Assembly: GCA_018335585.1 (NCBI GenBank)
Contig: JAGXRZ010000054.1
Span: 1 to 52,637 of the forward strand
Origin: Selenomonadales bacterium
Lineage (GTDB): Bacteria; Bacillota; UBA994
Length of the DNA: 52,637 bases
Direction: 5' to 3'
In this document: one piece after another, positions 25,593 through 27,987 of the stretch
Layout: the number at the start of each line of letters is the position of its first letter
How positions within the stretch are numbered: position 1 is the first letter of the stretch
The notes under the pieces: generated by a model
What the model saw: only the letters and a program-made list of their open reading frames with translations
Database searches by the model: none
Told to the model about the DNA's origin: nothing
Position numbers and translations under genes: made by a program

Positions 25593-25701
25593 TGTGGGGG
25601 GAGCAATGGATTAGTTTTGCCAACTAAGGAATTAAGCCCATGGATTAAGTTATTAGCCAGGTTAATTATCAGAACACAACAAAAAATATGTTAAAATGCA
25701 C

Positions 25702-25732
25702 TTGACGGTCTGGGGGGGGGGATGTGTAAAAT
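25702..25732 (+). promoter_or_regulatory. Promoter with a ten-G tract in its spacer
   Basis: TTGACG (25702-25707) stands upstream of TAAAAT (25727-25732) with a 19-nt spacer, or of the weaker TGTAAA (25725-25730) with 17 nt. The spacer contains an uninterrupted run of ten G (25712-25721). Gain or loss of G by slippage would change the spacer length and so promoter strength; loss of two G would put the better -10 at the ideal 17 nt. Confidence 0.6.
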
Positions 25733-25764
25733 ATAGCTAATATTGATAAGGGGGTTGCGAGTGA

Positions 25765-26454
25765 ATGAAAGCGTTTTTGGTTGTCGTCCTGTCGTTAGTG
25801 ATGGTAGCAAATGCTGTAATGGTTCCTGTTGCCAGCGCTGAGTCAGCCGTAGGTGCGGCCGAGTGCCTTATAGCGTCTCTGATCGAGAACAGTACATACC
25901 TGGCTGTTAGGGATTCGCTCAGCCGTCAGGGTACAATGTTGATGGATCCACGTGTTGCACACCGAGGCGAAGTTGACATCGTAGCGTTTAACACTAATAA
26001 CCCGGATATGCCTACGGTGTTGGTGGTTCTTGATCCCGCCCGTCAAGTACGGGATGTAGTCGCAGTGCAAAGGGGTGGAATGCAATCAGGAAATGAAGTA
26101 AGCGTAAGCAGCGCTACCAGCGGAGTAACAGCGGTTAGTCTGCTCACTGGAACTCCCAAGGAGGTCATAACTATGACCCCGGAGTTGGAGGGTGCTCATG
26201 CTGGGTTTCTGATTGTCGTCTTTGGGGCAGTATTATGGCAATCCACGCAGTGGATGTTGCTTGCTCACATAGGTATGCATAATTGGCAGGCAGCTGCGGT
26301 GCTAACTATTTTATGGGGTACCGCGCACTGGTACATCGACCAATATGGCAACATTTGCCCTAATATAATATGGACATTCCATACCGAACAGATCTTGCTA
26401 GAGTATGCCGTTGTGCATGTGTGCCCGCATACTGGACTGATCACTGTGCCATAA
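25765..26454 (+). CDS. Unrecognised exported protein with C-terminal hydrophobic segments
   Basis: 229 residues. A signal peptide (KAFLVVVLSLVMVANAVMVP, cleaved after ASA near 27) is followed by a soluble part of about 120 residues with a strand pair (TVLVVLDPARQVRDVVAVQR). Two hydrophobic stretches then appear (AGFLIVVFGAVLWQSTQWML and QAAAVLTILWGTAHWYI), rich in Trp and His, and a tail with three Cys/His sites. I do not recognise the family. The ATG at 25765 follows AGGGGGTTGCGAGTGA. It leads the cassette of paralogous membrane proteins and may be under phase-variable control. Confidence 0.75.
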   Translation: MKAFLVVVLSLVMVANAVMVPVASAESAVGAAECLIASLIENSTYLAVRDSLSRQGTMLMDPRVAHRGEVDIVAFNTNNPDMPTVLVVLDPARQVRDVVAVQRGGMQSGNEVSVSSATSGVTAVSLLTGTPKEVITMTPELEGAHAGFLIVVFGAVLWQSTQWMLLAHIGMHNWQAAAVLTILWGTAHWYIDQYGNICPNIIWTFHTEQILLEYAVVHVCPHTGLITVP

Positions 26455-26488
26455 GTACGAGGCCGAGTTTTAGGGGGTGACTTCATCA

Positions 26489-26863
26489 ATGGCAATTGGT
26501 ACGGGGCCCATGGAGTTAGAATTATGGCAGATGTTGCTAATGGCGATAGGTGCTGGGGCTATCCTCCTGTTGGTAGTCATGATCATAAGGGATCTGTTGT
26601 GCCGGGGTGCTGGGCAAGACGTAGGCGCTGCCAAGAAATTCGAGATAATGAGAAGGGGGGCAAGGATTGGCACCTCATGTTGGGTGGCAGGCATTGTGAT
26701 GGCTATAGCTATCGCAAAGGATTTAGTCGAGGCAGCCGTTCCTTGGCATGAGCTATTAATGATCCTTGGTGTTGGCGCGGTGGCATTCACTGTAACTGAG
26801 CTGATATGGGCGTTGTGCCGCAAGGCACTTGCGAAGCTAAGGGCACCCATTTCAAAGGCATAA
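26489..26863 (+). CDS. Small membrane protein, paralog 1 of 3
   Basis: 124 residues with three hydrophobic segments (about 13-34, 63-78 and 84-108). A motif AVPWHELLMILGVGAVAF leads into the last one and is shared by all three tandem paralogs. The ATG at 26489 was chosen because the same ATG and leader (GGGG..GACTTCATCA) recur before paralog 3. An in-frame GTG at 26477 overlaps the ribosome binding site. I do not recognise the family. A holin- or sensor-like small membrane role is possible, but unsupported. Confidence 0.75.
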   Translation: MAIGTGPMELELWQMLLMAIGAGAILLLVVMIIRDLLCRGAGQDVGAAKKFEIMRRGARIGTSCWVAGIVMAIAIAKDLVEAAVPWHELLMILGVGAVAFTVTELIWALCRKALAKLRAPISKA

Positions 26864-26872
26864 GCATCTCAG

Positions 26873-26895
26873 GGCCCCACTGGTGGGGCCTTTCT
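26873..26895 (+). terminator. Terminator after paralog 1
   Basis: GGCCCCAC (26873-26880) and GTGGGGCC (26883-26890) with a 2-nt loop, followed by TTTCT. The rest of the 279-bp gap to paralog 2 has degenerate heptamer units (GAGCAGT, TTGAGCT, CTGAGCG at 26898-26919) and no other gene. Confidence 0.8.
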
Positions 26896-27141
26896 AGTGA
26901 GCAGTTTGAGCTCTGAGCGTAGGCGTGGGAGGAAGGTGCAAGGGAATAGGTCAAAGTGGCACCGAGGCTCCCTGCCCAGGTGCGAAGTGCCGGTGAATTT
27001 GCGTGTTTGTGCAAATTCATAAAGTGCACAGCGAAGGCCTCCACCGCGCACTGGCCTAACGCAAAAAATAGTAGACATTTCAGTTAATAGCGAATAGAAT
27101 TGCGGTAGACACGTGGAAATTCAGTGGAAGGAGTGGGCGTC

Positions 27142-27573
27142 ATGCTCTTGCATATCAACATAGGACGCATGGAGGCAGAGCTCGCGTGGCAGGGCTTGTT
27201 CTTGCTGATAGGAGCAGCGACTATTGTGGTTATATTCGCTTGGCATGCAAAGGGTCTGGTACGCTTTGCCCGAACTCAGTTGAAGGCCATCCGTGACTGT
27301 GGTGGGATGCGGGAGTATATAAGCACTGTTAAGTGGCATGAGAAGCGAGAGGAGACCTGCAAATCACCACCGAGGTCCGGCGTCTCTGTATGGGCGGCTG
27401 TTATTGTGACACTCATCGTTATTGAGCGCGACGTGTTCGAGACGGCTGTTCCTTGGCACGAGCTAATAATGGTGCTTGGCGCGAACTCTGTTGCATTCAC
27501 GGCAACCGAGCTACTCGAGGCGTTATGTCGCAAAGCGTATGCTAAGGTAAGAGCTCCGCATTTACAGGGGTGA
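27142..27573 (+). CDS. Small membrane protein, paralog 2 of 3 (diverged)
   Basis: 143 residues from the ATG at 27142 (GAAGGAG upstream). Same layout as paralogs 1 and 3 but longer in the central loop: a first membrane segment (GLFLLIGAATIVVIFAWHAK), a basic loop with EKREETC, then a second segment and the shared motif ETAVPWHELIMVLGANSVAF. The C-terminus (ALCRKAYAKVRAP) matches paralog 1. Divergence is high in the first half, so it is an older copy. Confidence 0.75.
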   Translation: MLLHINIGRMEAELAWQGLFLLIGAATIVVIFAWHAKGLVRFARTQLKAIRDCGGMREYISTVKWHEKREETCKSPPRSGVSVWAAVIVTLIVIERDVFETAVPWHELIMVLGANSVAFTATELLEALCRKAYAKVRAPHLQG

Positions 27574-27597
27574 GTTTTTCAGGGGGGGACTTCATCA

Positions 27598-27987
27598 ATG
27601 GCAATCGGTACGGGGCCCATGGAGTTAGAAATATGGCAGATGTTGCTCATGGCGATAGGTGCTGGGGCTATCCTCTTGTTAGCAGTCGTTATCATAAGGG
27701 ATCATCTGTTACGTCGGGGCACGGGGCTAGACGCGAGCGATGCCAAGAGATTTGAGACTAGGAGAAAAGGAGCAAGGCTTGGCTCCTCGTTTGGGGTGGC
27801 AGTCGTTGTGATGGGTTTAGCTGTAGAGAGGAGTTTAATCGAGGCGGCCGTTCCTTGGCATGAGCTATTAATGATCCTTGGTGTTGGTGCGGTCGTTTTT
27901 GCCGCAGCTGAGCTCGTGTGGGCGTTGTCTGGCAAAGCGATTTCTTGTATACGGGCAATGCGACCAAAAGGACCAGCCACAAACTGA
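27598..27987 (+). CDS. Small membrane protein, paralog 3 of 3
   Basis: 129 residues. The first 30 residues and about 30 nt of leader are nearly identical to paralog 1 at DNA level, with many fewer matches in the central basic loop (DASDAKRFETRRKGARLG), then again near-identity through AAVPWHELLMILGVGAVVF. This patchy identity suggests recent duplication or gene conversion. Its ribosome binding site is a run of seven G, versus five G and a T in paralog 1. Confidence 0.75.
   Translation: MAIGTGPMELEIWQMLLMAIGAGAILLLAVVIIRDHLLRRGTGLDASDAKRFETRRKGARLGSSFGVAVVVMGLAVERSLIEAAVPWHELLMILGVGAVVFAAAELVWALSGKAISCIRAMRPKGPATN

Follow-up and report, generated by a model that had tools for sequence, protein, structure and literature searches.

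A ten-G promoter spacer before an exported-protein gene and a candidate class of length-variable promoters in an uncultured Bacillota family

The stretch of DNA analysed here (the window; 52,637 nucleotides) comes from an uncultured Bacillota organism and carries, ahead of a gene for a predicted exported protein, a promoter with ten consecutive Gs between its -35 and -10 hexamers. Sequence comparison across the family suggests, as the best reading, that this promoter belongs to a multi-locus, length-unstable class, which would be a known kind of promoter in an unexpected lineage. With a probability of roughly 0.55, we infer that the G tract is slippery and that it tunes transcription of the exported protein; slippage within the population, the effect on transcription and the benefit are all parts of that inference.

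The window promoter, its gene and its orthologue

The features discussed below are as follows:

25702-25707, + strand: -35 hexamer TTGACG, read directly; the orthologue has TTGACA there
25708-25726, + strand: 19-nt spacer GTCTGGGGGGGGGGATGTG, read directly; the orthologue counterpart is GTCCGGAGGGGGGTGAGG, 18 nt
25712-25721, + strand: G10 homopolymer, the proposed slippage site; sole G/C run of at least 8 in the window
25727-25732, + strand: -10 hexamer TAAAAT, read directly; same letters in the orthologue
25748-25754, + strand: AAGGGGG, probable ribosome-binding site, judged from sequence, 10 nt 5' of the ATG
25765-26454, + strand: gene for a 229-aa predicted exported protein, ATG at 25765; open reading frame list, no Pfam match
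26477-26863, + strand: small membrane protein gene, first copy; open reading frame list, start likelier at ATG 26489
27124-27573, + strand: small membrane protein, second tandem paralogue; promoter-like site TAGACA-17-TAGAAT ahead
27598-27987, + strand: small membrane protein, third tandem paralogue; open reading frame list and paralogue comparison

The elements read, from 25702 to 25732, TTGACG, GTCT, ten Gs, ATGTG and TAAAAT. The sequence-only reading had described TTGACG and TAAAAT 19 nt apart around ten Gs and had reasoned that loss of two Gs would give a 17-nt spacer; the description was exact, and the arithmetic holds on the read sequence. It had also named this the longest G run noticed in the window, and indeed the next longest G/C run is 7. 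First- to fourth-order Markov estimates gave 0.04-0.07 runs of at least 10 expected in 52.6 kb, so that the G10 alone is just mildly unusual; what goes beyond chance is its position between two good hexamers and the family-wide repetition of this layout. The site has two features of the spacer-homopolymer class, namely flanking sigma-70-type hexamers and a homopolymer of at least about 7 inside the spacer, and it was omitted by an automatic promoter scan because that scan was restricted to spacers of 16-18 nt. Inspection of the spacer GTCTGGGGGGGGGGATGTG revealed no inverted repeat, and it does not correspond to a MerR-type long-spacer promoter (19-20 nt with a dyad operator). An alternative promoter using the TAAAAT at 25692-25697 was rejected, as no -35 hexamer stands 17 nt from it and the orthologue has C in place of its first T.

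The orthologous locus lies in G004, a genome of another genus in the same family. Its promoter reads TTGACA, GTCCGGAGGGGGGTGAGG (18 nt), TAAAAT and then TTAGCTAAT, with the flanks kept too. Both hexamers are thus retained, which makes the window promoter call a good one and upholds the promoter proposed earlier. The spacer there contains the interrupted tract GGAGGGGGG (G2-A-G6) without a long homopolymer, and at 18 nt it shows that the window G10 itself is not conserved. Directly 5' of the orthologue promoter is a group II intron remnant (L048, 1601-2037, minus strand), with RF01999 above and RF00029 below the cut-off; a search of Rfam for a leader RNA family returned just this remnant and spurious miRNA matches.

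The 229-aa protein begins with a signal-like helix, MKAFLVVVLSLVMVANAVMVPVASA, and has a hydrophobic stretch near residues 146-165. A Pfam search gave zero matches, and its earlier description as an unrecognised exported protein is therefore retained, export being predicted. Its sole PHROG match was a marginal one to a tail protein (E 0.095), and an AlphaFold model made without an alignment (pLDDT 43) was too poor for use. Full-length relatives occur only in G004 (74% amino acid identity), with a fragment in G006; none was found in named genomes, plasmids or viral contigs. The first small membrane protein gene probably shares a transcript with the 229-aa gene, and this partner is also kept beside the G004 orthologue, where the locus has one copy versus three tandem paralogues in the window (26477-27987). 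The neighbours are an addA-type gene upstream, whose product has its nearest named counterpart in Firmicutes bacterium UBA994 (63% identical), and a methyltransferase gene downstream.

Related promoters across the family

The pattern TTGAC-N-G6-N-TANNNT gave 29 raw matches in 7 of the 8 family genomes, several of them inside genes and hence chance matches; the reversed control gave 0. When the tract was required to be G8 or more, 7 distinct sites were found among the 8 family genomes versus 17 among 291 other genomes of the phylum, with 4 control matches in the rest of the sampled phylum and 0 in the family when reversed. Furthermore, TTGAC stood 1-10 nt 5' of 11 of the 230 G8+ runs in the family, against 2.2 expected under a uniform-base null (P about 2e-5). 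A profile built from 14 sites returned about 18 good sites in the eight family genomes, most in G004, with about a dozen in one genome and four on one G004 contig. Most of these were also profile inputs and their recovery is not independent; the sites outside the building set were G001:C137, G004:C25, G006:C87 and G004:C53:27776. In the window, the profile found the G10 site alone (22.7 bits; next 7.7). Spacers across the related sites span 14-21 nt, with weak choices of -10 hexamer at some of them, and an A/T-rich ATAAATATCC or a variant lies just 5' of several -35 boxes. Promoters of this kind from separate assemblies resemble each other.

Where the downstream gene is readable, the set mostly precedes genes for predicted exported proteins with signal-like starts, export having been called by eye and with a crude hydrophobicity measure. 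Among these products are the window protein, its orthologue and a PHP-like protein whose match to Pfam PHP falls below the cut-off. A matrixin-like metalloprotease, likewise below the cut-off, is accompanied by a second exported protein; further products are a C39-like peptidase (PF13529, 2e-15) and exported proteins of unknown type. The exception is G004:C25:12488 (L155, minus strand), where a promoter with a G9-T-G6 spacer precedes a 19-residue, Lys-rich peptide open reading frame, MVHVFGCDAAKKSKKKKKK, and a radical SAM protein (PF04055, 4e-20); judged by its sequence, the locus is probably a RiPP cluster whose precursor is Lys-rich. A promoter and upstream flank like those of L155 also occur in L023 (G004:C11), at a contig end.

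Contig ends recur in the set and leave the downstream gene unreadable. Five of the about 18 sites lie within about 45 nt of one, or of junk sequence at one, versus 0.12 expected, with the contig stopping 22, 38, 40 and 43 nt past the start of the -35 hexamer in four cases; in the fifth, G001:C137, a G16 is followed by poly-A junk. These breaks are no more than suggestive: the sampled population may have contained tracts of several lengths, or the G runs may have been sequenced poorly.

Tract length between related promoters

The promoters of the PHP-like exported genes were compared in G000, G006, G007, two G004 copies and G046, the last being a distant copy from a different family that was found independently; G007 was placed in this set on promoter similarity alone, because its contig stops 38 nt past the first base of the -35 hexamer. 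In the order G000, G006, G007, G004 and G046, the tracts are G9, G6, G9, none and G12, and the spacers 16, 14, 17, 17 and 20 nt. Both hexamers are kept, the lead is 4-5 nt, the tail is 3-4 nt and the distance from the -10 hexamer to a leader motif is constant within one base, with the length change confined to the G run. As a control, 25 speD promoters across the phylum have spacers of 16-18 nt. The pattern in the PHP-like promoters is what slippage would leave.

Two sets of G004 promoters behave differently. Three paralogous promoters on G004:C53 all have exactly 16 nt, with tracts broken by substitutions (GGTGGGGGG, GGGGGGGGG and GGTGGCGGG), so that here length has been held while the run was broken or made by substitution. 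The two G004 PHP-like copies have a 17-nt spacer with GGAGAGGTGG and without a G run. Taken together, these cases indicate that spacers can stay G-rich in the absence of a slippery run.

Spacer slippage, alternative readings and known systems

In the proposed mechanism, a sigma-A-type promoter would carry a slippage-prone G tract in its spacer, replication slippage would add or remove Gs, and each gain or loss would shift the distance between the hexamers around the 17-nt optimum. The genes for the exported protein and for the small membrane protein that accompanies it would then be transcribed strongly, weakly or not at all, differing between cells. The window copy, a member of a set of such promoters spread across the family, would be expected to be weak at G10 (19 nt) and strong at G8 (17 nt). 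The phase-variable promoter suggested by the sequence-only reading is thus supported in part: the promoter, the recurrence of G-run spacers before exported-protein genes and the difference in tract length between orthologues speak for it, whereas the G10 is absent from the direct orthologue. The G-run promoters of the family probably act as random switches, either on/off or of strength. The broader proposal, that independent poly-G spacer switches diversify exported-protein genes in this family (about 18 promoters in eight genomes), is tentative, with somewhat less than even odds. If it is true, exported proteases, exported unknowns and a RiPP-like cluster would vary combinatorially from cell to cell, outside the classical pathogens.

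The main rival, a fixed G-rich cis element, is possible but on the unlikely side. A regulator, or a property of RNA polymerase such as low basal activity needing an activator, would read G-rich or A-form-like DNA; the homopolymers would then arise by substitution, with their instability as a by-product. Such an element would account for the several members that are G-rich but interrupted, for the G004:C53 paralogues that hold 16 nt with substituted tracts and for the G004 PHP-like copies with GGAGAGGTGG at 17 nt; moreover, the set stands mostly before one kind of gene, as in a regulon, and the similar A/T-rich ATAAATATCC and its variants lie upstream of several -35 boxes. A fixed operator, or a spacer under constraint, would however hardly tolerate the 14-20-nt span of the PHP-like promoters, in which only the G run changes, and the window spacer lacks a MerR-type dyad operator. 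Slippage and a fixed element are not exclusive and can both hold. The conserved G8 of speD (S-adenosylmethionine decarboxylase) promoters was considered as proof of a fixed element and rejected, as the other speD loci inspected all had no such promoter run; speD promoters with a G8 spacer were seen in L112, L123 and L126, from three other families of the phylum.

It is improbable that the layout reflects chance or drift, with G8+ runs arising from other causes, such as G-rich ribosome-binding sites or mutation bias, and some of them landing unselected in promoters. Runs of this length occur in the family at several times the density seen in its class neighbours, many of them coincide with ribosome-binding sites or fall within coding sequence, and sporadic cases such as the three speD promoters occur outside the family. 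Nevertheless, TTGAC precedes G8+ runs about fivefold over expectation, and far more so when TANNNT is also required; the reversed control is zero in the family, and most of the downstream genes are of a single kind. That this draft assembly is in error, through faulty assembly or sequencing, either in the number of Gs or in showing a run at all, is very improbable. The window assembly does contain a contig that opens with 20 C (G000:C3:1-20), probably an artefact and with no TTGAC directly beside it, and the G16 of G001:C137 runs into poly-A junk; the window G10, by contrast, has clean unique sequence on both sides, its alignment to the orthologue leaves a spacer difference of one nt, and like promoters occur in separate assemblies.

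By analogy, the window site and the family set fit spacer-length phase variation of the porA and tp0126 type, which is familiar mainly from spirochaetes and from Gram-negative pathogens adapted to a host (PMC3899988, PMC7864442). In Neisseria meningitidis, the PorA transcript level follows the G count in the spacer (PMC3899988); the window promoter shares with porA the G run in the spacer, a tract length that sets the hexamer distance and a product that is at the cell surface or, here, predicted to be exported. Unlike porA, which belongs to a Gram-negative pathogen and whose transcriptional dependence on tract length is demonstrated, the window promoter belongs to an uncultured Bacillota organism and is read from sequence. 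In tp0126 of Treponema pallidum, an OmpW homologue, a G tract lies between the hexamers and 17 nt is best; support came from E. coli reporters, and several genes of the one genome have poly-G promoters (PMC7864442). The class described here likewise has poly-G between the hexamers, the 17-nt arithmetic, predicted exported products and multiple loci in one genome; it is known from comparative sequence, whereas tp0126 is supported by reporters. The TA repeat in the promoter spacer of hifA/hifB of Haemophilus influenzae (PMC3899988) also alters the -35/-10 distance, but it is a dinucleotide repeat in a divergent promoter pair.

A partial literature search returned no report of spacer-length phase variation for Bacillota beyond mycoplasma-type relatives, and the analysis turned up nothing that points to a pathogen or to immune evasion. 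A multi-locus set in an uncultured Bacillota family, if true, would suggest that promoter slippage as a means of bet-hedging in exported products reaches beyond these systems and is untied from immune evasion.

Two further observations concern sequences ahead of coding regions. The leaders of the PHP-like genes (L024, L026, L133, L135 and L171) have GGCAAC...GTTGCC-type complementary segments in common, which could pair into an extended stem, as predicted for L133 and L135; no Rfam family matched these leaders. Additionally, G8-G9 runs in the family often directly precede start codons, apparently as ribosome-binding sites (for example G006:C99:819, G007:C209:3284-3419 and G004:C44:39047), and these might likewise vary in length and thereby tune translation.
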